Origin: Carallia brachiata
Taxonomy: Eukaryota; Streptophyta; Magnoliopsida; Malpighiales; Rhizophoraceae
Direction: 5' to 3'
DNA length: 64,000 bases
Assembly: GCA_021464245.1 (NCBI GenBank)
Contig: JADCRB010000038.1
Location: 4,454,924 to 4,518,923, forward strand
Of the stretch, positions 1,234 to 63,087 are shown piece by piece. Under the pieces are notes generated by a model. It was not told the DNA's origin. It worked only from the letters and a program-made list of their open reading frames with translations, and made no database searches. The translations under genes and the position numbers were made by a program. Every line of letters begins with the position of its first letter. Position 1 is the stretch's first letter.

Positions 1234-1241
1234 TCCCCCCT

Positions 1242-2670: not shown

Positions 2671-2671
2671 T

Positions 2672-4675: not shown

Positions 4676-4677
4676 TG

Positions 4678-6787: not shown

Positions 6788-6800
6788 GATTAAGAGGGGA

Positions 6801-6970
6801 TGTTGAAGTTAATTCAAATTTAATTCTTAACTGTTATTTAAGTAGAACTTCGTTGTTTAGTGTGTTTCCACAGTCAGGTAGAATTAGGATTTTGTTGTTA
6901 CTAGTATATAATGACGTATGATTTATGTTTTGTGCGTGTGCTTCTCATTATTATTGTGTTGCATTATTGA
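6801..6970 (+). repeat. 3' LTR of copia copy B, 3' end lost
   Basis: Starts TGTTGAAGTTAATTC directly after AAGAGGGGA and matches the LTR at 1024-1233 (inverse orientation) until about 6970, where it runs into T-rich low-complexity DNA. The last 40 bp of the LTR are not recognisable. Confidence 0.7.
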
Positions 6971-7093: not shown

Positions 7094-7805
7094 TCAGCGA
7101 GCTCTGCGGGGTGCAAGGAGAAGCTCCAAGTTAACTAGGTCATCGATAAATGTGCTGGTAGTCCCACTATTGGCCGATCTCCTTTGGCAGTTGACATTGC
7201 CAGGGGAGTGGAAAAAGCACAAGACTACCCTTGGTAAAGTCTGCGACAAAGGGCAAAGGCTTGTCGAAATAATCTGCGATAGAGCGAAGAACTCCATTCA
7301 ACGTCTTCGGGAGAAGAGGAGGAGGACTTTCCTTACTTGTTTCACAATGGAGGGAGTTTGTCCAATTTTCTTCTCGGATCACGATCTCTGTCAGAGAAAA
7401 TGTCATGCTTATCAAAGAGGGAATGCTTGATGACTCACCGTGCTCTATATGACGCTATTGTGCATTAGAATGACTTAGAGGGACAAATGCTATGGGTATC
7501 ATCGGACTAAAATCCTTAGCAGAACTCAAAGGAGAACTACTATTGGTGAGGTCGACAACTGGGACAATGGACGTGGTGGAAACAGGTGAGGATTTGGGAA
7601 AACGAACCTTTTGCTCTGTTTTTGCCCTATACCTCTGGTTGCAAAGCCAGAAGTAAACATTCTTGGGTTCTATTTCTCCATCATATTGTAAAATTGGGGT
7701 AAGACGAAAAATCTCCTCTTCCAAAGTGCGATAAGCCTTTTCTAAAATTTCCAACTGTTGTGGGACTGGCCTCCACTGTCAGTGTTGCGGCACATCATTA
7801 GCCAT
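7094..7805 (-). pseudogene. Decayed WUSCHEL-like homeodomain ORF at the 3' end of a Tat gypsy element
   Basis: Minus strand, ATG at 7805. One frame runs to 7167 with only two stops (TGA at 7779-7781, which one C-to-T change in a CGA codon would explain, and TAG at 7455-7457). The homeodomain reads QWRPVPQQLEILEKAY, then EIFRLTPILQYDGEIE and PKNVYFWLCNQRYRAK. G.IE.KNV(Y/F).W..N is the WOX-class signature; the helix 1-helix 2 loop is about six residues shorter than in the ORF at 60593. Further on, SLVLFPL resembles the WUS box (TLxLFP), and after a frame change near 7170-7190 the end DDLVNLELLLAPRR resembles the EAR-like tail of the 60593 ORF. It lies about 600 bp downstream of the pol end of the gypsy element, on the same strand. 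In host genes WUS-type proteins are nuclear transcription factors that maintain stem cells; activity of this copy is not expected. Confidence 0.72.
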
Positions 7806-8399: not shown

Positions 8400-9760
8400 A
8401 ACATTTTTTGACTACATCTGAGTTGATAGGATTTAGGATATCCTCACCATCCATATTAGTCAAAATGAGTGCACCTCCTCAGAATGCATTTTTTACGACA
8501 TACGACCCTTCAAAGTTTGGTGCCCACCTGCACTGTGGATCATTTTGATGCGGCAAAAGTGTCTAGAGGACCAAGTCTCGTTCTTTAAAATTCTGGGACA
8601 CATCTTTTTTTGATGGGCTTGTCTCATTTGCCTATGATATAACTAACCATAACAAATAGCATTCAGCCTCTTTTCCTTTATGAGATTCAATTGTTCGTAT
8701 CTAACTTTACCCATTGAACCTCATCTAACTCTGTTTCCATCAAGACTCTCGATGAAGGGATTTTCACTTCGACTAGGAGAACTGCCTTGGTTTTATAAAC
8801 CAATGAGAATGGTGTTGCCCCTATTGGTTTGCGCACAGTAGTACAATATGCTTGCAAAGCGAAGGCAACATATACTGCCCATTTTTGTACGTCACAGTCA
8901 TTTTCTCGATGTTTTCTTGATGATTTGGTAGAGATTTTTATTTGCTGCTTCAACAGCTCCATTCATTTTTGGTCTGTATGGAATAGTATTATGATACTTG
9001 ATCTTGAATTTCTCACAGAGTTCTGTCATCATTTTGTTGTTTAAATTGGTTATATTGTTGATCAATCGCTTTGGTACACCATATCAACAAATAATGTCTC
9101 TCTTTATAAAGTTGATCATTACTTTACGGTTGACATTAGCATAAGAGGCTAATTCTACCCACTTCATGAAGTAGTCAATTGCCACTAGAATGAATCGGTG
9201 TCCATTTGATGGCTTTGGTGTTATAGGACAGCTCACATTCATTCCCCACACGAAAAATGGCCAAGGAGATGTCATAGTATGCAATGGAACAGGTGATGCG
9301 TGAATTTTGTCTACGTGAATCTGACATTCGTGACATTTCTTTGCGTACCAAAAACAATTTGACTCCATAATTGACCAGTAATACCCTACTCTTAAAATTC
9401 TCCTAACCATGGAAAGACCACCAGCATACGACCCACAAAAACCTTAATGCACTTCTCTCATTATGGTTTCTACCTCAGTTGCATCTACACATCGTAACAA
9501 TAAAACATCATGGTTGCATTTATAAATAATATCTTTGCTGAGGAAGAAATTCATGGCCATTCTTTTTAAGATCGTCTTATTATGTTCAACTGCCACTTCA
9601 AGGTATTCCCGAGTATTCAAGTAGTGCTTTGTGTCATGATACCAAGGCTTGTTATTTGCTTCCCTTTCTATGTACATACAATGAGCAGGAGTATGATGAA
9701 TATCAACTTGAATCACTTGAACATTGACGTCTGAACCAATTTTGTACATTGCTGCCAGTG
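8400..9760 (-). pseudogene. Gypsy (Tat) integrase
   Basis: In minus-strand order: the linker with PWYHDTKHYLNTREY and LLRCVDATEVETIMREVH (9444-9749); the zinc-binding end CHECQIHVDKIH; the core with PWPFFVWGMNV, GHRFILVAIDYFMKWVE (9084-9410), where the first catalytic Asp of the usual WGxDV is replaced by Asn; then GATPFSLVYKTKAVLLVEV (8687-8962); and a C-terminal domain (WAPNFEGSYVVKNAF, GGALILTNMDGE) ending at about 8400. Several stops and frame changes. It would insert the cDNA copy into the genome in an intact element. Confidence 0.85.
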
Positions 9761-10200
9761 TTGCTAGGGCATCAAATATTTGATTATTCTCTCAAAATAT
9801 GTGATTGAAGGTAATTTGATCAAATTACTCCATTAACTGTTTAAGGTATTGATGATATGGGACAAGTTTGTGATCTAGTTTTTCCCATTCACCAAACAAC
9901 TGATAGATAACCAATGTTGAATTACCATATACCTTGACATTTTTCACTTTCATTTCTAAAGCATAGCATGAGCCCAAGGCATAGGCCTTATACCCTGCTA
10001 CATTGTTGGTTCATTCAAACTGTAATTTTACTACAATTGGATACTGTTTTTCATTAGGAGAGATTAGAACTGCTCCTATCCCATGCCCTAGTGCATTGGA
10101 CATTCCATCAAACTACATCTGCCATTCGTATACTATATCCTTGTCATCTTGATTTTGATCAACAACTAGAATATCTTCGTTAAAAAAGTCAAAATGCATC
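9745..10200 (-). pseudogene. Second RNase H (aRNH) of the Tat element
   Basis: Minus-strand reading with scattered stops: FDGMSNALGHGIGAVLISP, EMKVKNVKVYGNSTLVIYQL, GEWEKLDHKLVPYHQYLKQL and a NQIFDALATLAAM tail. This is the plant-type RNase H that Tat elements carry in addition to the gypsy RNase H. The first acidic residue (FDG) is kept; the AEYEA block has become AGYKA. Confidence 0.8.
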
Positions 10201-11460
10201 AGCTTGTAATCAAGGATAGCTCAATCTGCTAGAAAATCAAAAATCACACTACCTTTGACTGCTTTGTGACTAACATATGGTATAGCATACTAAATCAAAA
10301 AACCTGCCAACAAGCTATTTGCCTAGATGAGGCTAGTTTCTTAAAGATGTATTTGATGGGGTCCTCCTTAGCAATGAGCCAAGTTGTATTATATAGCATG
10401 TATTGTCTAAGCCTACGAGTAGTCCATGCCAAGGCACAACAAATTCTTTTCATGTCTAAGTATCTGACCTCATGATTAGTAAATTTCTTGCTGAGATAGT
10501 ATATGGTCCTTTCCTTTCTACCAGTCTCATCTTGTTGACCCAGAACACAGCCCATACATTGATCTCGAATGGTAAAATATAATAAGAGAGGTTGGCCTGG
10601 GACTGGTGGCACCAAAACTGGAGGGTTTGATTGGTAATGCTTGATTTTCTCAATAGCCTCCTAACACTTGTCATTCCACTTTTTTGAAGTAGGCCAAATA
10701 TTGGTTCACATGTTGCGGTCAGCTATGATATAAATCTTGTTATATAATTGAGCCTTCAAAAGAAACCCTACACCTCCTTTGGTGTTGAAGGTATTGACAT
10801 TTCTTGTATGGCCTTCATTTTGTCAAGATCAATTTCTATGCCCTTTGACTAACAATAAATCCCAACAACTTGCTTGAAGTTGGTCCAAATGTGCACTTGG
10901 TAGGATTATGCTTGAGTTGGTATTTCCTCAGACGATCAAACAATTTTTGAGGACCAGCAAGTGATCTTTTCTAGCTTTGGATTTGGGAATCATATCATCC
11001 ACATACACCTAAATTTCTTTGTGCATCATATCATGGAAAAGTGTTACCATTGCCTATTGGTAAGTAGCACCAGCATTTTTGAGAGTTAATGGCATAACTT
11101 TACAACAAAAAGTACCCCACATCGTGACAAATGTTATTGTCTCCATATCTTCATATGCTATTTTGATCTGATTGTATCCTGAGAATTTGTCTATAAAGGA
11201 AAACGTTGAGTAACCTAATGTATTATCCACAATAATGTTTATGTGGCACAACGAAAAATTATCTTTTGGGCTAGCTATGTTCAAATCTCTGTAATCCACG
11301 TACATGCAAAGCTTGCCATCCTTTTTGGGTACTAGAATAATGTTAGCTACCCATTCAAGGTATTTTGCTACCTAAAGGAAACCAGCATCCAACTGTTTAT
11401 TGACCTTATCTTTAGTAAGATCTCTGGTTTAAACCTTCTTAGCTTTTACTTGACTGGTCT
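10201..11460 (-). pseudogene. Gypsy (Tat) reverse transcriptase and RNase H
   Basis: RT at 11054-11305: YVDYRDLNIASPKDNFSL, FSFIDKFSGYNQIKIA and VMPLTLKNAGATYQ, followed in other frames by an RT palm remnant near 11000 (VYVDDMI-like). RNase H at 10295-10615: GQPLLLYFTIRDQCMGCVLGQQDE, IYYLSKKFTNHEVRYLDMKR and WLIAKEDPIKYIF. The D of the usual LPHID/FMDGFSGYNQ pattern is present (FIDKFSGYNQ). Multiple frameshifts between segments. Confidence 0.85.
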
Positions 11461-14012: not shown

Positions 14013-14800
14013 TTATGGGTGCTCAAGCGCAAACATTAGGCTGAAAAGGTCTGAACTGAGTATTTTGGTAAAACAATAGGATTGCCAAATTAGGAGGTTG
14101 TTGCCTTGGTCTAGGGTTGAATTTTCCTTAGGGATTGCTGAAGGATTGATAAGGGGAACGAATTGCAGATCGAAAATCCGCTTTACTATTTGAACCTCTC
14201 TTTTTTTCTTTCTATTAGTGTTGACTCGTTTTGTATTCTCACGAGTAGAGTCAACAATCTTGCCTTTACAAATTCTTTTATCAATTCTTTCACCAGTAAT
14301 CACCAAATTAGCAAAGCTCCCTGAGGTACTTCCTACCGTTCGGTCATAGTAAGGAGCTTTCAAGGTACTAAAAAAGGTATAGATAAGTTCTTTTTCCAAG
14401 AGAGGGTGTTGAACCTACATAACCTCATTATGGCAACGTGGTGCATATTGCTTAAAAGTATCTTCAGGCTTCTTCTCTATGGCTTGAAAGTCTAGCTAGG
14501 TCGGCTCTAATTTGAGATATATTTGAACCTTGCTTTGAAAGCAGATGCCAATTCCTTCCATGTTTTGATGCTCTTCCTATCCAACTTTGTATATGAGCAG
14601 GAAGCTACACCTATCAAGTTGTCTTGAAAGTAATGTATAAGCAGTTTCTCATCATAAGCATATGCTACCATTTTTTGAATGTACATTGTTAAATGATCAA
14701 CTGGTGGCCCTATACCATCATATTTCTCAAGCTCAAGTGTCATGAATTTTGAGGGTAAAAACATATCTTAAACAAGACATCCAGAAGTCCATAAATGTCC
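14013..14800 (-). pseudogene. Gypsy (Tat) gag
   Basis: Frame 14507-14764 has LEKYDGIGPPVDHLTMYIQK, DEKLLIHYFQDNLIGVA and SIKTWKELASAFKARFKYI, the retrotransposon gag fold of Tat elements (usual W-Y of the FQDSLTGAALxWY block lost). It continues in another frame at 14013-14399 with EKELIYTFFSTLKAPYYDRT and GSFANLVITGERID, the typical gag C-terminal segment. Truncated by stops. Confidence 0.8.
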
Positions 14801-18308: not shown

Positions 18309-19091
18309 GAGTTACATTCGTTTGTAACATATAATTTTTGACAAAATTGTACTTGGTATCAATAAGTTGGTTCCACAACTATATTTGGGAACTTTGGTAT
18401 ACACTATAGTCATTGACTATGACAATGTACTTTGACCTTTTTCAATTAGTCACTAATATTTTCATATGTTCATAAAAGCTCTTGAAACCAAACCACTACT
18501 TGTTTTGCATTCAAGTAAGCCACAAAATTAGTCCTTATGACCACATAGGCTTCACAAGTTTGATCCTGCTACTATGTGAAATGGCACCATCATTAGCAAG
18601 AACATGCATTGTGATATTGATTTACATTTATCAATATCTCACTCTTAGTTGTCATCCAAATGACCAATTGAGTGTCAAATGATTCTCTTGATGACATAAG
18701 GAGTTACATTCATTTGTGACATACAGTTTTTGACAAAATTGTACTTGGTATCAATATGTTGGTTCCACAACTATATGGGAACTTTGGTGTACACTATAGT
18801 CATTGACTATGACAATGTACTTTGACCTTTTTCAATTAGTCACTGATATTTTCATATGTTCATAAAAGCTCTTGAAACCAAACCACTACTTGTTTTGCAT
18901 TCAAGTAAGTCACAAAATTAGTCCTTATGACCACATAGGCTTCACAAGTTTGCTTCCAGCTACTATGTGAAATGGCACCATCACTTAGCAAGAACATGCA
19001 TTGTGATATTGATTTACATTTATCAATATCTCACTCTTAGTTGTCATCAAATGATCAATTGAGTGTCAAATCATTCCCTTGATGACATAAG
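18309..19091. repeat. 392-bp tandem duplication
   Basis: Two adjacent units, 18309-18700 and 18701-19091, near-identical over their full length (both start GAGTTACATTC and end GATGACATAAG; differences are single bases such as ATATTTGGGAACT/ATATGGGAACT). No open frame. By position it may derive from the 3' part of the decayed copia that follows on the minus strand. Confidence 0.92.
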
Positions 19092-22000
19092 GAATATCTT
19101 GTAATGCTCTTAAGATACGAAGACTCTATACAACTTGTCGACAAATTTCATTTGGATTTGACTGGTAACACCATACCAGTTTTATGACATAAGATATTTA
19201 GTTGAGTACATATTACAGTGCATGTCATACTATCCATAGTATTGGAAAATTACATGTGTTTCATGTCTTGTACTTTTTGTGATTGGATACCTTTTAAATC
19301 TAAGATTTTAATCACCATCCATGAGAAAAAATTACAAACATACTTTTAAATCTCTTGATATATCTAAAATGATCCTCATTGACCATTTCCAAACCAAAAG
19401 GGATTATTACACGATGGAAACTAAAAAACCATTGCCTAGAAAGTTGTTTTATACACCAAGTGACCTTTACAACCTGCACCTTTGTGCTCAAGGTCCCAAC
19501 AATAAAATCTAATGGTTGTTCCACTCAGATTTCTATGTCTAGGTCCCTAATGGAAAAATGGCTTTAATGTCTATCTAGTATAATTCTAAACTTATAATAG
19601 CCATCACAGCTAAAAATTAAATGAATTAAGGTAAAACCTTTACTGTGAGAAGGATTCCTTATGGTTTATATCCTCCCACCAGGTTGGCCTTTTGCTACTA
19701 TGCGAGTCTCACACCTTTTTATTGATCTATCTACCTTACATACAATATTGAGAACTTGATTATTCCCAACAATTTAGTGTCCTTGAGATAAATCTACCAA
19801 GTCTTAAACATAGTGAGATTTTACGGATTCCATCTCCTTTTCAACGCTTGTATCTATTATTTTTTATAGGGCATGATAGAGCTTCAACTATGTTTTAGGC
19901 TCTTTTTCTCATAAAGAGTAATCATAGAAAACTATCCCTAAGACTGAAAATGCTGATGTGGGAATAATTATAATTACTCTTGTGTAATACGAGTTCTCGT
20001 AACCTTTACGCAACTTTTGGTATAACGTTCCCACTAGAGACAAGAGCTTAAGGCATTTCCTCATTTTGCTCTATCGAATGATCTAGTGTGTTGCCACCAT
20101 TTAGATCTCTCATCTAATGAAGATGAAAGAACTTTATTGTATCACCCCTACTAAGAAAATTTAAGAATGTAACGTCACGTGATTCCAACTTTTAAATACT
20201 TCCATTAACTTACTCACCAATAAACACATCCTTTTTGAGTGTTGATGAAATTTTATTGATTTTTTTTATATATGTTTTAAACCCAACTTTCTTGTCTATT
20301 GACCTTAAAAGGATGAATAGCATAAGTTGTCGACCCTAGGGCTTAAAATTATTCAAGTCGTGCTTTCAACCTTACCATAACTCACACGATGTGGAAGTAA
20401 TGAATTTAGAGGGCATTCGGTTAACCATATAAATGCACTAATTGAAACATCTCTCCAACAATTTATTGAGAGCCTTGTTCTTGTCATCATTTATCTAACC
20501 ATTTTCAATATAATCATATTCCTCTTCTTAGCAATGCCATTTTGTTGCAAAGCCCACAGATGGTTAGTGGTTAACTATATTTTCTTATTACACAGTTCTT
20601 AAACTATCATAAAGATTTGCATTCATGGTATGCTATTAGGATTTGATTCTTTTGACAATTGATACTCTACCATACTTGAATATTTTAAAAGTATGGTTAA
20701 TACACTACCATAATTAAATCTAATACTTTAGATTTATGGGAGATCAAATAGATACAACCATAATGCATATAATCATCTATGCTTTTGTGACTTCATGCCT
20801 TGCCCTCACACTTGTTGGATCACATATGTCAAAATGGACTAGTTATAATGAAAATTTAGCTCTAAAAGCCTCGTCAAATAGTTTTCAAATTTGTTTTTCC
20901 TATCGGTTAATATTGGCATATATGCTATTCCTCTTTAGCGGGTAACTTCATAGGACTATCTTTAGCTAATCCTTCTAACAAGCCAAACATTTGCATTTAT
21001 AACCTTATTGTTACAAGATGCAATTGGGAAAAACACTTATCGTGGATATTCAATACATCATATTGAACATTCAATCAAAAATTAATTATCTAAAATATGT
21101 CCAAATACAATAAGTACCATTGTAGATACTACAGTGTTATCTTTGAAAAACAAGCATAAAGCATAGACACAGAAAAGTAAGAATGAGAAAAAGTCCATAC
21201 AGAACATCGTGAAGCGTTAAGGTTCGATTATTGTGCAATTCTAAATTGCAAGTATCAACCACTTTGACTTTCACTTGCATATGGTTCCATACACACACCT
21301 TTTTTGGATTAACTTCAATTCGATGAAACTTCATGTATGCTTCTCAACATTTAGCATTATGTTCAACTGCTCGAGTCTATAATCCAAATTGGATTTGATT
21401 TGAGAAATGAATTGAGTTGGAGACATAAGCTAAACTATGAGAAACAAACTCAAAGGACTTAATTTCTGCATCAATGCATTCATGAGTGGGAAAGACTAAA
21501 TTTCACTACCATTGTAGTACTTTGGTTTTATCCTTTCCCTTGCTATTGCTTTACTAGCAATAATCAATTTGGTTCTTCTTCTATGTTAGCTCATTCCCTT
21601 TACCTTTCAAGTGACACATGTAATGTTATTACATTTTGAACTAGAAACAACCTTTAAACGAATCTCAACTTCAACTATATTCACTTGTCTAGGGTGCTAA
21701 TCTCTAGGTACTTTTTTGTAGACTTAAATGGCATGAGATATTTTCAAAGGTCTTACTTGCATCAATTTTTTTATTTTATTTCAATGTTCTTCCATTCTAA
21801 AGGGATTGCACAAATGTTAGTTAATCTATTGCACATTCATAAAGAGTATTGATTAACTACTTTGAATTCTATCAACTTCTTTTAGCACAATCAATTAGAT
21901 TGCACAATAGGTTATTGTCTCATATTATATGACTTTTGCTTAGAAAAGTCAATGTTGATCATGAGCTTTCTCAAACTAATAGTGGAGATTTCATAACTTG

Positions 22001-28752: not shown

Positions 28753-29190
28753 CCAAGGTTGTCAAAATCAGACCGGTCATCGAACCGGCAACATTAGTTG
28801 GTCAAGGTTCAACCGGTTGAGCCGGTATTTGAACCAGTATTTAATAATATATATATTTATAAAAAATAATTGAAAAAATGATATTTATATATAGTAGTTA
28901 AACAATAATTTTTTTTTTGTTTTAAGGATTAAATTGAAAGTTTTAATTAACTTAGAACTAAATTGAAATTTTTAGTTAAAATTAGAGTTTTATTATAATT
29001 CAGACAAAATTTTGGGTCAAATTATAATTAATTTTTTTTTAATTGAACCGGTTGAACCGGTCCGATTTTTGACTGGTTTTGACCGGTCCGGTCTGCCCCC
29101 CATTTTTATGCCTAAACCGGACTAGACCTAGAATCGGTCACTGGTCCAACTGGTTGAACCGGCCAGTCCGGTTCAGTTTTAATTACACTG
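28753..29190. mobile_element. CCGGTT-rich MITE-like repeat, copy 1
   Basis: Begins CCAAGGTTGTCAAAATCAGA, followed by dense CCGGT/ACCGG words, an A/T-only core, and a second block of CCGGTT/AACCGG words ending near GTCCGGTTCAG at 29176. The core (AAATTGAAATTTTTAGTTAAAATTAG) is the inverse of the core of the repeat at 43932-44570, so both belong to one family. No coding capacity. Probably a non-autonomous DNA transposon; the superfamily is not settled because no clear target duplication was found. Confidence 0.72.
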
Positions 29191-39906: not shown

Positions 39907-42900
39907 TTAATAAGCATCAACATCCTCTTCGTGGTCCATCAATTTCCAAGAACCATCTACTTGTTGGACCATTCCCCTTGTTCTTTTCAATCCGCCATGA
40001 AACTGGCACAAGATACTCGTCCTTTAAACCGTCCATTGTTTTGTTAATGAGAGCGATATCACGATTAACCTCCAAATTAAACCCTCCTTTGGACCCTTGT
40101 GTACCTGCCACTCCATGCAAATATGCCTCCAAATTGTGCCAACTTGACACATTTCCTGGGCTCTTCAAGTACTGGGATTCCGTAGTATCGATGGCCAATT
40201 CTTCTCCCACCTCCGCATATCCTATCAATGGATAGTTTGGGACGATATCCAGAGCATTGCGAACGCGTAAAGCTCGGAGATCTTTGTATCCTGAAAACAG
40301 CTTCTTGAAGTTTAAGTCGCCAACGCGAGGGCTACCAAAGACGATGGCTGTGACAGGACATGCTTTACGTGGATGAGATTTAGGTCTGTTGAATCCATTG
40401 GCCACTATATCCACAGCATTCAGTGTCGCAAGTGCAGCCCCAAGGCTGTGGCCGGTTACAGTTATGCTGATTTCCTCATTTTTGTATTGCTCCACTAATC
40501 TCTTTACCTCATCAATAACCTAATAAACAGCACCTCAGATGAAGAAATAAAAATAAAAATATCGAATAAAATTCAATTAAGAATATATGTATTTCTTATG
40601 TCCATCAAATTGTTTTCTAACCAAAAAGTCTCCCAACAGATTTTGTCTTGCGAGACCGATCTGTTTATAAGTTTCGTATTCATGAATTAATCATTAGATG
40701 TCTCAAGTTCTTCTTGAGCAGCTCCTCTAACCACAAGATTGGAATTCAAATTCCAATCTCATCCCTAATTTTCTCTTTTCTACACCGAGGCTATCAGTTC
40801 CAACTGATTAAAAAAAATTAAAGCTAATACATAATAATTTTAAGTACTTACTAATTTTACTCTTTTTTTATAAGTAAAACTAACTTATATCTAATATTAT
40901 TCAGATATTATTTTTAATTTTTTTATTCAAGTGGACCCTACTTATTGTATAGTATAAAATCATGAGTAATTTACACTCACTTAAAAAATGAACTATTTCT
41001 TATATGTTCACATGTGTCTAAAATAAAGACAAACTGTATTTAGGCGGCAATAATGAATGTATTTTAAACAATCATATTACAACTTATGAACCAAAAGAAT
41101 AGTAATAATTTTTCGTTTCACTTTTTATTGTTACAATTACTCAAAATGTACTTATTGTTGTAATATGAATATTATTTGAATAATTTTTGGTTTAACCATA
41201 AACATTTACTAAAAATAAAGTGGATACAATTCAAACAAGGTTAAAAAAAAGTGACATGACCAATAGGAAAAGATTCTATTTATTACTTATCTTTAATAGG
41301 AAAATCTAATTGTGACTACCTGCCATTAAGTTTCAAGTTAGAATATCGGGGATCGATTATTACTGCCTTTAAACAACTCGTACCAAGGGTTTAATTTAAC
41401 ATGTCGATTAACCAAAACAAGCAAAACAAAACCATGTAGAAGCTTGGTTCAAGGGAAAAAAAAAAAAAACATGCAGAAGCTCTCTCTCTCTCTCTCTCTC
41501 TCCCCGATCTACTAAAACTTTCTTACTGGTGCTTAACGAAATTGAAGGCTTGTTCTCTTTTCGAACTAGTTGGGAAATAATTCAATTTATAGGGAAATTC
41601 AATTCTTCTCCAATTATTATGAATAAAGAAAAATATTTTTAGATGTGTTTAAAATAGCTGTTAGGGTTTCATTAAAAAAAAATTTTATAGCCACATCAAT
41701 ATTATAATTCAAGTTTTAATAATAATCAATTTGTGAATTCCCTCCGGAGTAATAATTTTTTAATTAATTTATGTAAAACACTTTTCAAGAAAAAAAAAAA
41801 AAACACTCGTGTATGATGCAGGTGTACAGCTAGTCCATATATATAATAATGAACTCTAAATCTAAGAGAAACTTTATGATCATAAAAGTATTTTGGCTAC
41901 ATCATTTTGTTTTTTTTTTTTTTTTTTGAGAAGGCTACATCATTTTGTTGAATACGCTAATTTTGCGACAATTGAAAACTTTTTTTTCCATAATGAAAGT
42001 CTATAATACAACGTGGACTACACTTATGATCATCTCATATAGAAAAAACTAAAAAAAAAAAAAAAAACATGAAGACTGGTGTGGGAGACAAGACAGAGAC
42101 AAGTGATGAGTCTTAAAAATTTTTGTTTGGAAAAAATATTATGTGCATATAATTAAAATAAAGTATACAAACAATCTTACAAAATATTTGATGCACACTG
42201 TACTTAACTGTCCTTTATTGTATGCACCTCATAAGTTTTTTGAAAAAAACAAAAACTCATGGAGTTGTCACAATTAGATGAATTAACAAGTTAAGATAAA
42301 TACAAGTCAATGCTTGCAAGTCATAACAACATCTTTCCATGGCATATTAACTGTTCTTTAACTTTTCCCTTACTGGAGAGCTTATGTTATGTCAAAGAAA
42401 ATGTTAAAATTAATCAGGCACGATGGCTAACGAGAGATGGTTTTACCATATTCCGGAGTTAGTCAGGCATTAAAAATACTCAGCATTATTCCTATGTATA
42501 TACATAGATAACATACTTAAATTACCTGATCTCTGGCGCTGGCCTTATTGAAAGGTGAACGCGGATCTTCAGAAGCGTAGATGGAGTACCAACCTTGGTG
42601 CACACTGGGATCACCAGAAGAAGACTTGCCGAGTAATTTTGCAGCCGAGACCAAACCGAATTCAAAATCATTAACCCACTCCAACGTCTGCACCGTGCCT
42701 CTCCAAGCAACGACAATATCCCTCCTCCCCAACGCAGCCTTCCCTTCATCGGTGGCCATCGCAATGTAACCCATCCAATTCGATTCCTTGCTCCAAACCT
42801 CCCTCGACAATGACTTGATCATAAATCCATCAGGGAGCTGGATTTGAGACGTTGCGTACAAGTACTTGGTAACGTTGTACTTGTATGGATGGCCTTTCTC

Positions 42901-43115
42901 TAAACCAACCTTGGAGAAAAGGTCTCCCTTTGCGTATAGGCTGCTTCCTGCATACTTGGAGACCTTCTGTGTGTTGAAAGTGTCATATGTAGCTTGAGCC
43001 ATTTCGCCATAGTGAATGATGTTTCGCCGAAGATCCATGTCTAGAGGATCCAATAAATCCTTCCAATTATCTTCACCACTTAGTTTTCTCCACTCTTTCC
43101 TATGCTGTCCACCAT
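39907..43115 (-). CDS. Phospholipase A1, class II (DAD1-like lipase), two exons, with two apparent frameshifts
   Basis: Exon 1 is 42526-43115 and exon 2 is 39907-40519; the phase-0 junction joins ...SARDQ to VIDEVKRL. The protein is a cytosolic-type (no transit peptide seen) alpha/beta hydrolase that in this family removes the sn-1 acyl chain of phospholipids. Motifs: [12 protein letters not shown] and [11 protein letters not shown] near the N-terminus, VAWRGT (oxyanion side), the nucleophile [16 protein letters not shown] (Ser near residue 230), LDIVPNYP with the Asp, and [14 protein letters not shown] with the His. About 410 residues, the usual length. Oddities: from ATG 43115 the frame reads VDSIGK and then breaks at about 43091-43100 (one base short) before [11 protein letters not shown]. 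In exon 2, four Gs at 39974-39977 shift the tail, giving a stop at 39917; one base fewer would restore the usual family tail and a stop at 39907-39909. Either a young pseudogene or assembly indels. An alternative start at 43038 would avoid the first break. Confidence 0.88.
40520..42525 (-). other. Single intron of the phospholipase A1 gene
   Basis: 2006 bp with a GTAAT donor (CAG|GTAAT) and an acceptor TTTATTAG|GTT on the minus strand. AT-rich with several A/T homopolymers and a CT microsatellite at 41480-41502. No gene or recognisable transposon inside. Confidence 0.85.
41480..41502. repeat. CT microsatellite
   Basis: About eleven CT units in the lipase intron (GA on the sense strand), directly next to an A-run at 41457-41469. 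Confidence 0.9.
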
Positions 43116-43310
43116 GTTTTTCCTCTTCTTCTTGCCTAAAAAGCACCTAACTAGAACGGGCATGTTTCTTCGCGGTGTAGCTGTAGATATGTACCGCTAA
43201 GAAATGAGGCTAAACCTGAACCAGTGCTTGAGAAATAGCTATCCATACACTGATATGGGATGTACGGGTTCTCGAGGAGAGAGGAGCCGTGGTGCTTCTT
43301 GGGGGCTTAT

Positions 43311-43931: not shown

Positions 43932-44570
43932 CCAATGTTAAAAGAACCGGACCGGACCAGTCGATTCAACTGAAAAAACTTGGAAACGGTCCTAAGTCCG
44001 GTCTGATTCAATTTAAAAATAATTCGGACCGAACTGAAAAAAATTAGTCAAAAATCAGAAAAACCGTCAAAAACTAGAAAATAGACAAAAAATCGGACCG
44101 GTTGAACCGGTTCAATTTAAACCAAAACATTTTAAATTATAATTTTACCCAAAACTTCATCTAAATTATAATGAAAACTCTAATTTTAACTAAAAATTTT
44201 AATTTAGTTCTTAATTGATTAAAATTTTCAATTTAATCTTTAAAATTAAAAATTAATATTAAATCACTATTTATAAATATTATTTTTTCAATTAATTTTT
44301 ATAAATTATATTTTGTTAAATATACTAATTGTAATATCCTTAATGTATGTAAATATTAATATAATTCTTAAAATACACTTTATTTTAAATATTTATTATC
44401 ATTCTTATATAATATAACATTTTATATAATTATATAAACTATATAAAAATTTAATTTTTATATATTTAATGTTAAATACCGGTTTAACCGCGGTTTTACC
44501 GGTTGAACCGGTTGAACTTTAAACCTCTCATCTTTCCGGTTCAATGACCGTTCGGTTCTGAAAACCTTGG
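43932..44570. mobile_element. CCGGTT-rich MITE-like repeat, copy 2 (inverted relative to copy 1)
   Basis: Left end CCAATGTTAAAAGAACCGGA; the inverse of the right end reads CCAAGGTTTTCAGAACCGAA, giving imperfect terminal inverted repeats of roughly 20 bp. Internal words TTAGTTCTTAATTGATTAAAA and CTAATTTTAACTAAAAATTT mirror the core of the repeat at 28753-29190. About 200 bp longer than copy 1 because of a larger A/T core. No coding capacity, and no clear target duplication. Confidence 0.75.
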
Positions 44571-45981: not shown

Positions 45982-46711
45982 TGTTGGGGAAATTTTCAAA
46001 ATAGAAAAGTCGTGTCCCCTAATTAATTTGGTAGTTATGGATATGTGTCTATTGATGAAAGGACATGTTGAATAGTCGTGTCCACTAAACCCAAAAGACG
46101 CATATCTTGACCAAATAACTACCAAATTATTCTCCCTATAAATATGTGAATTGGCCATTCACATAGTTAATAGAGAAGATAGAATGTTGGGGATATCTTG
46201 GCCAAATAACTACCAAATTATTCTCCCTATAAATATGTGAATTGGTCATTCACATAGTTAATAGAGAAGATAGAATGTTGGGAAAATTTTCAAAATAGAA
46301 AAGTCGTGTCACCTAGTTAATTTGGTGGTTATGGATATGTGTCTATTGATGAAAGAACATGTTGAATAGTCGTGTCCACTAAACCCAAAAGACGCATATC
46401 TTGACCAAATAACTACCAAATTATTCTCCTTATAAGTATGTGAATTAGCCATTCACATAGTTAATAGAGAAGATAGAAAAATCCATAAACTTGTGTGAGT
46501 AATTTTGGATATTACAATAACTTCTCGAGGGCTCAATTTCAGTATTGCAACCTGCAGTTGAGTGTGCTTCATCTTATCCTGTGAGGGAGTTCGCATTATA
46601 CCTTTGTTGCACTTTAGTGAGGGCGAATTTTGCCTTAAGGAAAGTGGCGTTTGTTACACGACTTGAAGCAATTCTTTCATTTCCAATCTCACCCTCTTTT
46701 CTGTTCCAACA
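45982..46711 (+). repeat. 5' LTR of the noncoding LTR element
   Basis: 730 bp, starting TGTTGGGGAAATTTTC and ending TCTGTTCCAACA; the same ends occur at 49936-50573. Preceded by the target duplication TTATT (45977-45981). Inside are three tandem repeats of a segment ending CATAGTTAATAGAGAAGATAG; the 3' LTR has two. The orientation of transcription is taken as plus because the polypurine tract lies before 49936. Confidence 0.93.
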
Positions 46712-49935: not shown

Positions 49936-50573
49936 TGTTGGGGAAATTTTCAAAATAGAAAAGTCGTGTCCCCTAATTAATTTGGTGGTTATGGATATGT
50001 GTCTATTGATGAAAGGACATGTTGAATAGTCGTGTCCACTAAACCCAAAAGACGCATATTTGGCCAAATAACTACCAAATTATTCTCCCTATAAATATGT
50101 GAATTGGCCATTCACATAGTTAATAGAGAAGATAGAATGTTGGGGAAATTTTCAAAATAGAAAAGTCGTGTCCCCTAGTTAATTTGGTGGTTATGGATAT
50201 GTGTCTATTGATGAAAGAACATGTTGAATAGTCGTGTCCACTAAACCCAAAAGACGCATATCTTGACCAAATAACTACCAAATTATTCTCCCTATAAGTA
50301 TGTGAATTAGCCATTCACATAGTTAATAGAGAAGATAGAAAAATCCATAAACTTGTGTGAGTAATTTTGGATATTACAATAACTTCTCGAGGGCTCAATT
50401 TCAGTATTGCAACCTGCAGTTGAGTGTGCTTCATTTTATCCTGTGAGGGAGTTCGCATTATACCTCTGTTGCACTTTAGTGAGGGCGAATTTTGCCTTAA
50501 GGAAAGTAGCGTTTGTTACACGACTTGAAGCAATTCTTTCATTTCCAATCTCACCCTCTTTTCTGTTCCAACA
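49936..50573 (+). repeat. 3' LTR of the noncoding LTR element
   Basis: 638 bp, TGTTGGGGAAATTTTC...TCTGTTCCAACA, followed by the target duplication TTATT (50574-50578). Lacks the extra block of about 92 bp present in the 5' LTR. Confidence 0.93.
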
Positions 50574-56916: not shown

Positions 56917-56921
56917 GTAAT

Positions 56922-57770
56922 TGTAAACACATGAAAAAAAAAAAAAAGAGGAGGCAATCTAGAAGGTCAGCTTCTAGAAAAAGAAAAAATTCAAAGTTAG
57001 GCACCGGCGAGAAGAAAAAAAAAAAAAAAAGGGTCAGCAAAAGGTTGGTGGCACAGTACCACACAGTGCCACCCAAAAAGCCTATAAATAGGCAGAACCA
57101 ATGGCCATTTGCCAAGAGAGAAAAAAAGACAAAAAAAAAACAAAGGACGGGATAGTAACAATTGCAAATTGGAATTGCAAATCCAATTTGCAATTGTCCC
57201 AAAGAGAAAATATTCTCTTCCATACGTTTTATATTTTGGGCATATACACTTTAGACGCCAGTAAGTGCGATCTTCTAAAGTAAAGGCCTACAATATTTAT
57301 CATACACATTTTCAAAAATATTTTGGGTATACACTCTCCAGTCACCTCAAATCAGAATCTGAGAGAGAAAATATCCAAAATATCAAAATACTGCAAATCC
57401 GACTGGGATTAAGCCTCATACGGCCCTCAGCAAAATCCAGGCAGTTCATCCGAGAACAAGTCCCTTCGACCCTCGGTGAAATTAAGCCAGATCGGCTCAG
57501 ATCCGGTCTCTGCGGTTCTTAACCGTAGTCAAAACGTCCAAATCAGATCCATTTTCAGTCTACCCAGTTCAAGAAAAAGCTGTGGAAATTATTTCTGTCA
57601 AGATCAAGCTCGTGCAGCCCTTGACGGAGTCAAAAACAGGAGCATTAATCGGAGGATCTACTCAGAGATCGACCCCACATAAATTTCTTTTTATTTTACA
57701 ATTTTTTTTATTGTAATTTGTTTATGTATTTTGAGTCGAACTGTTACAGGCTCGAAATTTACCCTTCACA
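56922..57770 (+). repeat. 5' LTR of the gag + WUS-like element
   Basis: 849 bp, TGTAAACACATG... to ACCCTTCACA, near-identical to 62150-62997. Preceded by target duplication GTAAT (56917-56921). Contains CCTATAAATAGGC at about 57079, a good TATA box for the element's own transcript, followed by a leader region. Confidence 0.95.
57079..57091 (+). promoter_or_regulatory. TATA box of the element's LTR promoter
   Basis: CCTATAAATAGGC in the 5' LTR (and at the same place in the 3' LTR near 62307). The palindromic sequence fits a plant TATA box. Confidence 0.6.
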
Positions 57771-57800
57771 AATTTTTGCACGCTCGGTGGGACCTCTCCG
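57771..57800 (+). other. Probable primer-binding region
   Basis: Directly after the LTR: AATTTTTGCACGCTCGGTGG. It resembles the TGGCGCC...GGTGGGG primer sites of Tat elements (tRNA-Lys-like), but the expected TGG start is altered, so the assignment is tentative. Confidence 0.4.
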
Positions 57801-57867
57801 CCTCCCATCTTTTGCTCCTCTACAAAAAAATTAGCAGGAATCCAACATCAACGTTGTCACAATCACG

Positions 57868-59263
57868 ATGACAAGCGCAACGAACACTGAAGACAGGATT
57901 GCAGAATTGGAAAGCAGAATTTTCCAACTGCTCAAAACTGTGGAAGAAAAAGATCAACAGATCGCTGCCCTCAAAGGAAAAGCTCCAATCCAAGTTGATC
58001 TCCAGACCCACGAGGCGACGACAATATCCACCTGGTTTCACTCCAGAAGCGACACAGCCGATGTCTTCAATGCTGAAAAACAACCAGGTAGTTCTACACA
58101 GCTGCCACCCTCAATTCTGTAGCTTCGCTATCTGTTCAACAATTGCAGGAAATGATAGCCAATACGATCCGACTGCAACAAGCTACATCTTTCCAAGGAT
58201 CACAGATGTACGTCAAACCGTACACCAGACGGATCGAAAGTCTCAACATGCCTCTGGGCTACCAGCCGCCCAAATTTCAACAATTCGACGGACGAGGCGA
58301 TCCCAAACAGCACATCGCCCACTTCGTTGAAACCTGCAACAATGCAGGGACTTACGGAGATCTCTTGGTGAAGCAGTTTGTTCGTTCACTCAGGGAGAAC
58401 GCTTTCACGTGGTTCATAAACCTTGAACCAGAATCAATCGACAGTTGGGAACAGCTACAACGAGAGTTTCTCAACAGATTTTTCAGCACTCGGAGAACGG
58501 TGAGCATGATGGAGCTTACTAGTGCCAAACAAAGGAAAGGAGAGCCCGTTGTCGAATACATCAACAGATGGCGTGCTCTCAATCTAGACTGCAAAGATCA
58601 TCTTACGGAGACTTCTGCTGTGGAAATGTGCATCCAAGGGATGCACTGGGAGCTATTATACATCCTACAGGGCATCAAACCTCGAACTTTTGAGGAATTA
58701 GCAACTCGCGCACATGACATGGAAATAAGCATCAAGACCTCTGGAGGCACGATTCCCATCCAACTGGGCCAACATGGGGGCAAGAAGTGATGACCATTGA
58801 TGCTTCACCGATAAAAGTTGGAGCTAAAGCAAAAATGAGTCCTCCAGCGCTGGCAAATCAACCGAAACAACAAGAAAAGGGAAGGACGACCTTGCGAGAG
58901 TTGGAACAGAAGAAGTATCCATTCCCCGACTCCGACGTTCCAGACATTCTCGATCAACTTTTAGAAGCTAAGTTGATCAAACTCCCGGAATGTAAGCAAC
59001 CCAATCACAAGAATCGGGTCAATGATCCGAAATTCTGCAGGTATCACCGCACAATCAACCATCCAACCGAGAAGTGCTTCGTCTTAAAGGAGCTGATCTT
59101 GAAGCTCATAGACCAAAATAAAATCAATTTGGACCAGGGAGACATAGTCTCAGTCAACCAGACTGCCGTCCCTTCAAATCCGTCAGAAGAAAGTCAACAT
59201 GAAATTACGCTTGCATGCTGTCAACGCATCCCGACCTGGTTTGATCAAACGGTAAACTTCTAA
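57868..59263 (+). pseudogene. Tat-type gag, broken by two frame changes
   Basis: Starts MTSATNTEDRIAELESR (57868) with a coiled-coil N-terminus (LLKTVEEKDQQIAAL), shifts frame before about 58100, then NTIRLQQATSFQGSQMYVKP and GYQPPKFQQFDGRGDPKQHI, FVRSLRENAFTWFINLEPES, REFLNRFFSTRRTVSMMELT and CIQGMHWELLYILQGIKPRT (58143-58790). After a second frame change at about 58787 it ends with TTLRELEQKKYPFPDSDVPD and the knuckle-like CRYHRTINHPTEKC, stop at 59261. Gag forms the virus-like particle that packages the RNA. About 460 codons in total, the normal length for this lineage; only two small breaks make it look recently inactivated, or affected by assembly indels. Confidence 0.85.
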
Positions 59264-59269
59264 AATTTA

Positions 59270-59402
59270 CTGTGTAAAAAAAAAACAAAAAAAGGCAAAA
59301 AAAAAGAGAAATAAAAAAAGGAAATAAAAAGAAAAACAAAAAAAGCAAAAAAAAAAAGTGCAAAAAAAAAAGCACGAAAAAAAAAGCCAAAAAAAAAAAA
59401 TG
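59270..59402. repeat. A-rich tract after gag
   Basis: Roughly 130 bp that is mostly A on the plus strand, broken by single G or C bases (AAAAAAGGCAAAAAAAAAGAG), starting about 10 bp after the gag stop. Confidence 0.85.
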
Positions 59403-59697
59403 TCTGAAACTTATGTGCAAGTTTGGGAACCCTTCCTCAAAATCCAAATCTAGATTCGGGGGCAAATTTCAAATCCCGACTCAAAACCCAACAAAATTCA
59501 AAGCCAAACATAAATTCGGCTAAACCTGGGCTCAAAGCCCAAATCCAAATTCTAAGTCAAAGTTCAAATCCAGATTCAAGGGTAAAACTTATACCTGAAC
59601 AAAGTCCAGCTCAGCAACTCAACAGCTCAACAAGGAGCTCAGCAGCTCAACAGCTCAGCAGATCCGCAGCTTCTCAGCTGAACAGATCCACAACAAA
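59403..59697. other. Noncoding DNA with short irregular repeats
   Basis: Repeats of CAAA-type words (AAATCCAAATTC, CAAAGCCCAAATCC) and a CAGCTCAACAGCTCAG repeat at 59605-59680. The open frame here has a low-complexity composition (Q/S/N) and is probably not a gene. Confidence 0.5.
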
Positions 59698-60325
59698 GCA
59701 CTCCTGCCTCGCCACGAGTATAAAAGGCGCTAATCAATCCATCACAGTTCAGCACTCCTGCCTCGCACGAGTATAAAAGGCGAAAATCAATCCACCACAA
59801 TCAACACTCCTGCCTCGCACGAGTATAAAAGGCGACATCCATTCGCACTCCTGCCTCGCACGAGTATAAAGGCGATAATCAATCCATCACAGTTCAACAC
59901 TCCTGCCTCGCACAAGTATAAAAGGCGATAATCAATCCACCACAATTCAACACTCCTGCCTCGCACGAGTATAAAAGGCGACATCACAGTTCAACACTCC
60001 TGCCTCGCACGAGTATAAAAGGCGATAATCAATCCATCACGATTCAGCACTCCTTCCTTGCACGAGTATAAAAGGCGACACCACAATTCAGCACTCCTGC
60101 CTCGCACGAGTATAAAAGGCGACACCGCAATTCAACACTCTTGCCTCGCACGAGTATAAAAGGCGACACCACAATTCAACACTCCCGCCTCGCACGAGTA
60201 TAAAAGGCAATAATCAATCCACCACAGTCCACCACAGTTCAACACTCCTGCCTCGCACGAGTATAAAAGGCGAACAATCCAACAAACCTGACTCCTGGCC
60301 GCACGAGTATAAACTGTGAACGGCC
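59698..60325 (+). repeat. Tandem array with a TATA-box-like core (12 to 13 units)
   Basis: Each unit contains CTCGCACGAGTATAAAAGG plus flanking CACTCCTGC and a spacer of 11 to 33 bp (often ATAATCAATCCACCACA or ACACCACAATTCA). Two diverged copies with GAGTATAAACTGTGAACG follow at about 60293-60325 and 60455-60486. The core GAGTATAAAAGGC is an excellent TATA box match. The spacer length changes between units, so there is no single period. The array sits between gag and the WUS-like ORF, a region where Tat elements are known to carry hypervariable tandem repeats. Confidence 0.9.
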
Positions 60326-60592
60326 CAATAGCAAAAAAAAAATAAAAAAAAAATCGGAAGTCCCGATCTGAAAGCCCAAGCGAAAGTCAAAGCCCGAACA
60401 CAAAATCCCAAGTTCCAGACACAAGTCCAGAACCCAAATTCAAAATTCAATCCAACTCCTGGCCCGCATGAGTATAAACTGTGAACGACCCAAAAATATA
60501 AAAGCGATGGAGGGTTTGAGTCTGAAACCCAGCATCAGTCTCAACCGATCTTCACCACACACCAAGACCTTTGCTCCTCTGCCACAAGAAAG
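60326..60592 (+). other. Leader upstream of the WUS-like ORF
   Basis: An A-run, then CAAAGCCC-rich DNA, one last diverged TATA-like repeat (GAGTATAAACTGTGAACG near 60470) about 120 bp before the ATG, and TCACCACACACCAAGACC just upstream. Confidence 0.5.
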
Positions 60593-61204
60593 ATGGAACC
60601 AGTTGCAGAACCTCAAGACAAGGGAGAAGAAAGGTTACCCCGCACAAGGTGGCAACCGACCATGGCACAATTGCAAATTTTGGAGGAAGTCTTCCACAAC
60701 AATGGAGGTATTATTCCTAATGCATCTCAAATTTACCAACTTGCCTCACGATTGCGCCCGCTCGGGGCAATCGAAGAAAAAAATGTGTTTTATTGGCTCC
60801 AGAATCGGAGAAGCAGGAAGAAATCAGGACTGAGAGCTGCTTTTTCCAAAGAACAGTCTGCCGTTCCGATGGTAGATCCCACCGGTACAACTTCACCCTC
60901 AAATGAAGCAGGTCTGAGTTCTACCACTGCAATCGTCTCTCCACGGTATGTTCATCAAAGCCGTAGCCCATGGGAGCATGCATGCTGGTCCTGGTGGTCT
61001 TACGGAGTCAGCCAAGGGTTCATCCCTCCTAGATACTTAAGTCTAGGAGGAATTTTTCTAGCAGAAAGGAGTCATTCCGGCGAAACTTTGCCTCTCTTTC
61101 CAGAATATTCCGGCAGCATCAACCAGCCGAAAAGCGACGTCAACATCATCGGCCCATCAGACGAGGTCGAGCTTGACTTGGAGTTGCACCTTGGGCCCCG
61201 CTAG
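60593..61204 (+). CDS. WUSCHEL-like homeodomain protein carried by a retrotransposon
   Basis: Intact 203-codon ORF, ATG 60593 to TAG 61202-61204. Residues 17-79 form a WOX-class homeodomain: TRWQPTMAQLQILEEVF, an extended loop (HNNGGIIPN), ASQIYQLASRLRPLGAIEE, and the recognition helix KNVFYWLQNRRSRKK. The G.IE.KNVFYW.QN stretch separates WOX proteins from other plant homeodomains; the usual Phe after Trp is Leu. Residues 165-170 are TLPLFP, the WUS box, and 194-200 are LDLELHL, an EAR-like repressor motif, at the very C-terminus as in WUS (WUS is about 290 residues, so this is shorter). A Ser/Thr-rich middle lacks known domains. In host genes WUS keeps the stem-cell niche of shoot meristems and acts in the nucleus, mostly as a repressor. 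Here it lies in a retroelement, on the element's coding strand, with no intron, downstream of the TATA-like array. Expression and function are unknown. Motifs are seen directly; the WUS-clade placement is inference. Confidence 0.88.
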   Translation: MEPVAEPQDKGEERLPRTRWQPTMAQLQILEEVFHNNGGIIPNASQIYQLASRLRPLGAIEEKNVFYWLQNRRSRKKSGLRAAFSKEQSAVPMVDPTGTTSPSNEAGLSSTTAIVSPRYVHQSRSPWEHACWSWWSYGVSQGFIPPRYLSLGGIFLAERSHSGETLPLFPEYSGSINQPKSDVNIIGPSDEVELDLELHLGPR

Positions 61205-62140
61205 GACGACCGACAAGATAAAGTGCAACGACTTTGGCAGCACACAGTAACGACTTCCGCAGCACACGGCAACGACTTCTGCAACACACGGTAACGACTT
61301 TCGTAACCTGCATCAACCGCTGCCTCTTTTGTCTCTTATGGGGAAAAGGGACGTGGAGGACCCTACTCGATTCTGCGTACCTCCTTTTTGACTTTTCAAA
61401 AAAAAAAAATCTCTTTATGTTATGTATATATATCCTACATGCCCGAGTCATAATACTCACCCCTCAGCTCTTCTTTCTCAAAAGAAAATGGCTAGTCTCT
61501 GCACTTGTCTCAGAAGTTCTTCGATCAAGAAGTTGGAGGCGCACGAGCTAAGAAAAGAAGGAGTAGTCTTCTTCGAGGGATCCCTAAAAGCCCTCGAAAC
61601 TCAGTCTCCAACGCCATCGATGTCATGGAGTTCCAACTACTCTCCTTAGTTCACATCTACCGCAGAGGGATGAGAAGCTGCAATCATCCTAATCTTCCTT
61701 TGGATGCGGCGACGTACAGGGAAGTTCCAACTACTCTCCTTACGTCGAAGCAGACTTGGGAATCATCACTACAGTCAGTCTCTCTGTGTGCCGGTTTTGA
61801 AGTTCCAAAGTGTTGGGCCTTCCTCTTGGGGAGGTTCAAGTTCTTTGCCTACCGGATCATCCTCACCAGAGCTTTGGAACTTCAAAGAACCTTTGCCAGC
61901 CTTTGCGAGCTATGGAAGCTCGAATGCACCTGGAGCCAAGGCTTCAATTTCTATATTGGCTGGGCTGCTAACTTTCTCAAGATCGTATCGGATTCCTATT
62001 ACGATCCAACAACAGCAGGCATGGTCAAAGATAGAAGACTCCAAGATTCAATGTTCATCAGGACGTTTCCAAGTTTCAAACTGGACTTCAAACTCGGTTC
62101 GAATCATCTCTGTAAAATTCTTCCTTACCGACCCTTGAAG
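61205..62140 (+). other. 3' region between the WUS-like ORF and the 3' LTR
   Basis: Three 22-bp repeats (61227-61292, AACGACTTYYGCARCACACG plus two bases). Further on, GAAGTTCCAACTACTCTCC occurs near-identically at 61627 and 61722, and related GGAACTTCAAAG/GAAGTTCCAAAG words at 61798 and 61877. Two long overlapping frames (61505-62227 and 61704-62138) have no recognised domains and no clear start; I would not call them genes, though the GC content is higher than in the flanks. Confidence 0.45.
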
Positions 62141-62149
62141 TGGGGCATT
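62137..62149 (+). other. Polypurine tract
   Basis: GAAGTGGGGCATT directly before TGTAAACAAATG of the 3' LTR; the expected plus-strand primer. Confidence 0.75.
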
Positions 62150-62997
62150 TGTAAACAAATGAAAAAAAAAAAAAAGAGGAGGCAATCTAGAAGGTCAGCT
62201 TCTAAAAAAGAAAAAATTCAAAGTTAGGCACCGGCGAGAAGAAAAAAAAAAAAAAAAGGGTCAGCAAAAGGTTGGTGGCACAGTACCACACAGTGCCACC
62301 CAAAAAGCCTATAAATAGGCAGAACCAATGGCCATTTGCCAAGAGAGAAAAAAAGACAAAAAAAAAAACAAAGGACGGGACAGCAACAATGCAAATTGGA
62401 ATTGCAAATCCAATTTGCAATTGTCTCAAAGAGAAAACATTCTCTTCCATACGTTTTATATTTTGGGCATATACACTTTAGACGCCATTAAGTGCGATCT
62501 TCTAAAGTAAAGGCCTAGAATATTTATCATACACATTTTCAAAAATATTTTGGGTATACACTCTCCAGTCGCCTCAAATCAGAATCTGAGAGAGAAAATA
62601 TCCAAAATATCAAAATACTGCAAATCCGGCTGGGATTAAGCCTCATACGGCCCTCAGCAAAATCCAGGCAGTTCATCCGAGAACAAGTCCCTTCGACCCT
62701 CGGTGAAATTAAGCCAGATCGGCTCAGATCAGGTCTCTGCGGTTCTTAATCGTAGTCAAAACGTCCAAATCAGATCCAGTTTCATTCTACCCAGTTTAAG
62801 AAAAAGCTGTGGAAATTATTTCTGTCAAGATCAAGCTCGTGCAGCCCTTGACGGAGTCAAAAACAGGAGCATTAATTGGAGGATCTACTCAGAGATCGAC
62901 CCCACATAAATTTCTTTTTATTTTACAATTTTTTTATTGTAATTTGTTTTTGTATTTTCGAGTTTAATTGTTTCAGACTCGAAATTTACCCGTTACA
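62150..62997 (+). repeat. 3' LTR of the gag + WUS-like element
   Basis: 848 bp, TGTAAACAAATG... to CCCGTTACA, followed by the target duplication GTAAT (62998-63002). Confidence 0.95.
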
Positions 62998-63087
62998 GTA
63001 ATACCCTAGGGCCTCTAGATAATGCAATCTATAGTTAGACTTATCTATTGAAAGCTATGCATGGGGATATGAAGCATGTTGTAATAG

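Follow-up and report, generated by a model that had tools for sequence, protein, structure and literature searches.

A 64,000-nucleotide stretch of the Carallia brachiata genome (contig JADCRB010000038.1, positions 4,454,924 to 4,518,923; hereafter the window) contains a complete long terminal repeat (LTR) retrotransposon, element A, that carries an intact WUSCHEL (WUS)-like gene, and an older, decayed Ty3/gypsy region, element B, that is followed by a second WOX-like gene. The two genes lie 53 kb apart, each in sense and downstream of gag or gag-pol. We consider it likely that the WUS-like gene is an accessory gene of the element lineage and not the outcome of two accidents, and we lean, with less assurance, towards an old accessory gene whose product, to judge from its motifs and predicted fold, would bind DNA and recruit co-repressors. 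In the best reading, the lineage has an old member, the decayed element B with its pol remains, and a younger, non-autonomous one, element A, and we infer one capture followed by long maintenance in elements.

The anatomy of element A is as follows. It spans 56922-62997, the target-site duplication GTAAT is present on both flanks, and both LTRs start with TG and end with CA, so that the complete element with paired LTRs described in the original prediction is confirmed by LTR alignment and by reading of the flanks.

56917..56921, target-site duplication GTAAT, left (read directly)
56922..57770, plus strand, 5' LTR, TG...CA (LTR pairing)
57868..58122, plus strand, gag N-terminal piece, frame 1 (gag homologue alignment)
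58143..58790, plus strand, gag core piece, frame 3 (Retrotrans_gag, E 2.1e-15)
58787..59263, plus strand, gag C-terminal piece, frame 2 (aligns to gag homologues, without a Pfam match)
59699..60313, plus strand, tandem array (TRF period 44, 12.5 copies, spacing 41-63), most units holding the TATA-like GAGTATAAAAGGCG
60593..61204, plus strand, intact WUS-like open reading frame (ORF), 203 aa, with homeodomain 17-79, WUS box 165-170 and EAR-type tail 194-200 (translation, Pfam, PDB, fold)
62137..62145, plus strand, putative polypurine tract, purine-rich GAAGTGGGG before the 3' LTR (read directly)
62150..62997, plus strand, 3' LTR (LTR pairing)
62998..63002, target-site duplication GTAAT, right (read directly)

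The ORF at 60593-61204 comprises 203 codons with no internal stop, and the WOX-class homeodomain claimed for it is well supported: the Pfam Homeodomain model scores 46.6 bits over residues 17-77 against a cut-off of 22.9, and the nearest solved structure in a PDB sequence search is WUSCHEL (E 7e-16), with STENOFOLIA at E 6.8e-14. A chance reading is excluded by these homeodomain statistics, and a host gene that happens to adjoin an LTR is ruled out, as the LTRs and the target-site duplication bracket the ORF. In the structure predicted from a four-sequence input, the ten-residue blocks from 21 to 70 have average predicted local distance difference test (pLDDT) values of 93-95, and the average is below 60 beyond about residue 90; matches 1-11 of the 39 that Foldseek returned for this model are WUS or STENOFOLIA homeodomains (WUS E 5.4e-05). 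Pairwise comparison with nine references, which yields scores and not a full WOX tree, places that of element A nearest to an Ipomoea WUS-like protein (170) and AtWUS (167), both gap-free.

The homeodomain starts with RTRW at residue 17 and is followed by TLPLFP at residues 165-170, which conforms to the WUS box T-L-x-L-F-P, and by LDLELHL at residues 194-200, a C-terminal EAR-type L-x-L-x-L pattern that the Pfam EAR model scores at 15 bits, below its cut-off of 28.9 (E 0.019). Both motifs are found where they had been reported and in the order of host WUS. Because the WUS box, the EAR tail and the predicted DNA-binding fold are kept, the element protein would most directly be expected to be a homeodomain repressor, and it is fairly likely that, if expressed, it would repress through DNA binding.

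The gag of element A is distributed over three frames. Among 51 homologous gag proteins of at least 300 aa, alignments bridging frames 3 and 2 were obtained for 18 and alignments bridging frames 1 and 3 for another 3, and none of the 51 spans all three. Since homologous gag proteins align across them (21 of the 51 across two frames), both frame changes are breaks, as originally proposed. No pol domain (protease, reverse transcriptase, RNase H, integrase) was found in the element A ORFs tested, and element A is therefore taken as non-autonomous. The interior is ordered as gag pieces, an A-rich tract, the tandem array, the WUS-like ORF, a purine-rich stretch and the 3' LTR; by eye, TGG is absent from the first bases after the 5' LTR (AATTTTTGCACGCTCGG), where the primer binding site was sought. 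Upstream of the WUS-like ORF, TATAAA is matched 13 times in the tandem array at 59699-60313, both strands counted. This array may represent internal promoters or no more than a repeat, and its TATA-like units may simply follow from the repetition. An ORF at 61496-62137 was considered as a third gene and rejected, being without a Pfam match and without a second copy in the window.

A search with gag returned 1172 proteins from 1212 candidates at E 0.001 or better, the candidates being limited to about 118-376 aa, so that longer fused gene models would escape. The gag domain is present in all of the best 120 of these 1172 matches and the homeodomain in none, and the named plant records among the 120 are eudicots (Momordica, Cucumis, Malus, Sesamum and others); the sequences suggest that the gag of element A belongs to a eudicot gag family. 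One protein from this search, P0005, is a gag of plant type although its 1120-base contig bears the label Salmonella enterica; it is probably plant contamination.

The two LTRs differ by 23 substitutions at 846 aligned sites, with 5 further gap events (Kimura two-parameter distance 0.028, 2.8%), which at two rates that we take to be in common use would place the insertion at about 1.1 or 2.0 million years. At the mutation load of the LTRs, a neutral ORF of 203-codon length would still be open with a probability of 0.12 if all LTR indels are counted and of 0.35 with non-homopolymer indels only. The survival of the element A ORF since insertion is only mildly informative; the contrast of a broken gag with an intact ORF, drawn in the original prediction, is weak as an argument given these probabilities.

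The second WOX-like gene, absent from the original prediction and found by the follow-up analysis, emerged from a tBLASTn search of the element A ORF against its own window (minus strand, E 3.4e-11). The features of element B are:

7094..7805, minus strand, WOX-like pseudogene with homeodomain at 7778-7617 and post-homeodomain motif SIVPVVDLTNSSSP (tBLASTn, PDB)
9084..9443, minus strand, integrase zinc-binding piece (Integrase_H2C2 E 9.5e-4, below cut-off)
9825..10010, minus strand, possible second RNase H (RVT_3 E 0.028, below cut-off; three PDB matches at E 0.16-0.24, one named ribonuclease HI)
10295..10660, minus strand, RNase H piece (RT_RNaseH E 2.5e-19, above cut-off)
11054..11371, minus strand, reverse transcriptase piece (RVT_1 E 0.002, below cut-off)
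14507..14767, minus strand, decayed gag piece (Retrotrans_gag E 0.0055, below cut-off; 8 of 51 plant-type gag queries align to it at 24-34% identity)

The pseudogene lies downstream of the gag, reverse transcriptase, RNase H and integrase pieces in sense orientation. It contains in-frame stops at 7781-7779 and 7457-7455 and one frame change; the piece that follows in the homeodomain's frame holds an LVLFP box, the full reading SLVLFP differing from T-L-x-L-F-P at the first residue, and a LELLLAPR tail is found past the frame change. Its PDB sequence matches are STENOFOLIA (E 1.9e-7) and WUSCHEL (E 1.9e-5), with a Pfam homeodomain score of 17.1 bits, under the cut-off. When 1539 six-frame segments of the window were scanned with a homeodomain profile that was built with both window sequences included, only the element A ORF and the gene at about 7.8 kb were detected. 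The post-homeodomain motif of element B (window 7617-7518, minus strand) reads VPVVDLTNSSSP, which resembles a SUMO-interacting motif; element A has the weaker VPMVDPTGTTSP.

The possible second RNase H (a weak match, E 0.028) sits between the RNase H and integrase pieces, and in Ogre and Retand a second RNase H is likewise described between these two domains (PMC6317226). Element B, a decayed Ty3/gypsy region, is probably of Tat type. The gags of elements A and B are only 24% identical (E 4e-8), and the two elements are thus far apart. Ty1/copia fragments in inverted orientation, 84-86% identical, adjoin the end of element B (window 1077-6957).

Several features are common to the two genes. 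The similarity of the stretch after the homeodomain (SxVPxVDxT...SP) between A and B is reached by 4 of 5000 shuffles, whereas comparison of either gene with two Ipomoea WUS proteins gave between 2273 and 4771 of 5000 in the four comparisons. Both genes have WLxN where WUS and STENOFOLIA have WFQN, the F of which is near-invariant to our knowledge. The tails (LELxLxPR) score at 19 of 5000 shuffles. Over 82 aligned codons, identity at codon positions 1, 2 and 3 is 66, 50 and 38%, with 2 of 2000 bootstraps going against this pattern, a nonsynonymous distance (dN) of 0.54 and saturated synonymous sites; by this comparison, the gene spent a long period of the divergence between A and B as a coding sequence. 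The original prediction of a retroelement accessory gene is strengthened by the finding of a second WOX-like gene behind an older Ty3/gypsy integrase, and the two genes may go back to one shared capture. This second, divergent gene within the window also speaks against an ORF tied to one copy, the circumstance that the original prediction had named as telling against itself.

A number of observations weigh against an accessory gene of common descent. The homeodomain of element B scores 97 against that of A and 105 against STENOFOLIA (among the nine references), and is without clear affinity; homeodomains alone do not establish a single origin of A and B, and, since their scores fail to join the two, two captures are possible. 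The WUS boxes of A and B are not significantly alike (889 of 5000 shuffles), that of A against host WUS being reached by 0 of 5000. Likeness of the tails is in part family-wide, as the Ipomoea tail scores at 75 of 5000 against B and 384 of 5000 against A, and the middle piece of element B as a whole has no match to A (1175 of 2000 shuffles). The gag, reverse transcriptase, second RNase H and integrase matches of element B are all under Pfam cut-offs, and its LTRs were not found within the window. If there were two captures, the codon constraint could have arisen inside host genes. No element copy was found elsewhere, in collections with few or no plant genomes or by searches of low sensitivity.

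An alternative explanation is independent, passive captures that are useless to the element, A having arisen from a spliced host WUS transcript and B having been acquired separately or simply lying beside a WOX copy. Plant LTR elements are known to transduce genes (PMC7264820), and the match of the A box to host WUS and not to B, the homeodomain scores and the missing element B LTRs all fit such an origin. We nevertheless regard it as rather unlikely, because orientation and relative position are identical twice, the post-homeodomain motif is common to A and B and missing in the two Ipomoea WUS proteins, WLxN is common as well, and no more than two WOX loci were found in the window, both of them beside Ty3 gag or pol. 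A former accessory gene that is now functionless, its present copies drifting and that of A open only through youth, would agree with the broken gene of B, the broken gag of A and the neutral probability of 0.12 to 0.35 at the age of A. Retention of the homeodomain, WUS box and tail in A despite two gag frame changes, together with a homeodomain fold predicted with high confidence, makes this explanation improbable.

The protein might instead regulate mainly the promoter of the element itself, like the accessory regulators of complex retroviruses, and not host stem cells. The motif TTAAT[CG][CG], which we take to be a WUS site, occurs 3 times in the 5' LTR (a count reached by 7 of 200 shuffles) and 4 times in the 3' LTR (1 of 200), and the TATA-bearing tandem array lies upstream of the ORF. 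However, 25 motif-region tests were made, after which the WUS-type site counts in the LTRs are unconvincing, a point that also bears against the accessory gene, and they are not used as evidence; for TGAATGAA, with at most one mismatch allowed, the LTRs contain 0 and 1 sites, fewer than the means of the shuffles. Tandem arrays are moreover common in this region, being present in about half of the elements in one Retand survey (PMC11963269), and we hold regulation of the element's own promoter to be unlikely. Dispersal that benefits the host, whereby the element spreads WOX copies used by the plant, for instance in adaptation, recalls the amplified and mostly LTR-flanked WOX copies of two coastal Vigna species (PMC10714607). 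As the same report describes any part in coastal adaptation as unknown, and nothing in the window bears on it, this appears very improbable.

Under the accessory gene reading that we favour, element A would presumably be mobilised by enzymes of a relative. In the most likely mechanism, the element protein would enter the nucleus, where its homeodomain would bind WUS-type sites and its WUS box and EAR tail would recruit TOPLESS-type co-repressors; for Medicago HDL, TPL binding is reported to be lost only if both motifs, WUS box and EAR, are mutated (PMC6305195). One outcome may be that it competes with host WUS for the targets of the latter, among which are those that underlie antiviral defence in stem cells. 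Another may be tuning of element promoters, leading to expression of the element in shoot stem cells and their germline descendants. WUS is reported to block cucumber mosaic virus in the meristem via repression of methyltransferases (PMC9781121), and an element-borne WUS competitor could weaken such an antiviral block or regulate the element itself. That the element gains through stem cells or the germline is, in our judgement, doubtful.

A wider proposal, which we consider improbable but worth stating, is that Tat-type Ty3/gypsy elements carry an ancient, selected WUS-like stem-cell effector and that the Vigna bursts are a recent outbreak of the same strategy. A repressor competing with host WUS would then lower meristem defence or prolong the undifferentiated state, and new insertions would thereby reach the germline. 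If true, the effector would be a plant counterpart of host-derived retroviral regulators. An element-borne WUS-like protein with motifs for DNA binding and co-repressor recruitment would make the route by which plant retrotransposons enter germline-forming stem cells accessible to ordinary reporter, binding and interaction assays.

The original prediction was not aware of a description of this arrangement, but one exists. According to a passage on the work of K. Naito in a 2023 meeting report, Vigna marina and V. riukiuensis carry WOX genes in high copy number, with over 1000 in V. riukiuensis, and most of the copies lie between identical LTRs with target-site duplications (PMC10714607). In outline this is the same phenomenon, and it lowers the novelty of the present case. 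That short passage is without element lineage, gag/pol, motifs, age or WUS-clade assignment, whereas the window holds two divergent WOX-like genes, one of them behind Ty3/gypsy pol. New from the window are the intact repressor motifs of a WUS-clade gene, the connection to a Ty3/gypsy gag-pol and indications of age. Some of the genes counted as WOX in plant genomes may belong to elements, a possibility suggested by the Vigna report (PMC10714607).

Comparable captures and accessory genes are on record. Tat-nested Ty3/gypsy elements of orchids likewise carry a captured cellular gene as an additional ORF, an AlkB-type RNA demethylase; that gene encodes an RNA-demodifying enzyme, for which activity was shown in vitro, and not a developmental transcription factor (PMC9289625). 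Retand TRP28 elements resemble those described here in the length of the stretch that separates pol from the 3' LTR, where tandem repeats are frequent, in a presumed DNA-binding accessory ORF and in that some are non-autonomous, but their domain-bearing ORFs (Transposase_28) are antisense, and the paper states that no sense ORF of 600 bp or more in that stretch encodes a known domain (PMC11963269). Three antisense ORFs tested in the window gave no match to Transposase_28, element B being decayed and element A without pol. The element A protein has the homeodomain fold, WUS box, EAR-type tail and domain order of WUSCHEL and STENOFOLIA; unlike these, its gene is inside a retrotransposon, has L for F in WFQN and has the post-homeodomain motif common to B, and with 203 aa it is shorter than Medicago HDL, given as 302 aa (PMC6305195). 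The captured or accessory regulators of retroviruses (cellular oncogenes, Tax, HBZ) are similar as nuclear regulators beside gag/pol, by analogy only; the plant elements have no infection cycle.

The 2019 survey of extra ORFs took only those of at least 250 codons, outside which a 203-codon ORF would fall (PMC6317226). The parts of a 121-genome domain screen that name some of its 15 domains mention no homeodomain, which could be among the rest (PMC9289625). There is no homeobox, homeodomain or WUS in the passages covered of a 2026 gene capture review (PMC13317346), no homeo or WUS term in those of a review of additional ORFs (PMC7264820), and only WOX family comparisons in those of the Utricularia genome paper (PMC6982007).

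A protein search with the element A ORF protein (P0001) retrieved 2 proteins among 117 candidates, both Ipomoea WUS and neither an element copy, and a search with the A-B alignment retrieved the same 2 proteins among 500 candidates. This lack of element copies means little, since only two host WUS proteins surfaced. Scans of IMG/VR with P0001, gag, the four-sequence alignment and the element B homeodomain piece confirmed no relative, and plasmid and prokaryote genome searches revealed none.

Elsewhere in the window, a class 3 lipase gene (PF01764), likely one of the host, is represented by two exon-like pieces at 39920-43146 on the minus strand. An inverted pair at 28838-29070 and 44088-44322 (about 235 bp, 85% identical) is possibly a small DNA transposon. 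A direct duplication of 0.5 kb (98%) is found at 46193-46711 and 50056-50573, and a direct tandem duplication of 0.39 kb (95%) at 18309-19093.
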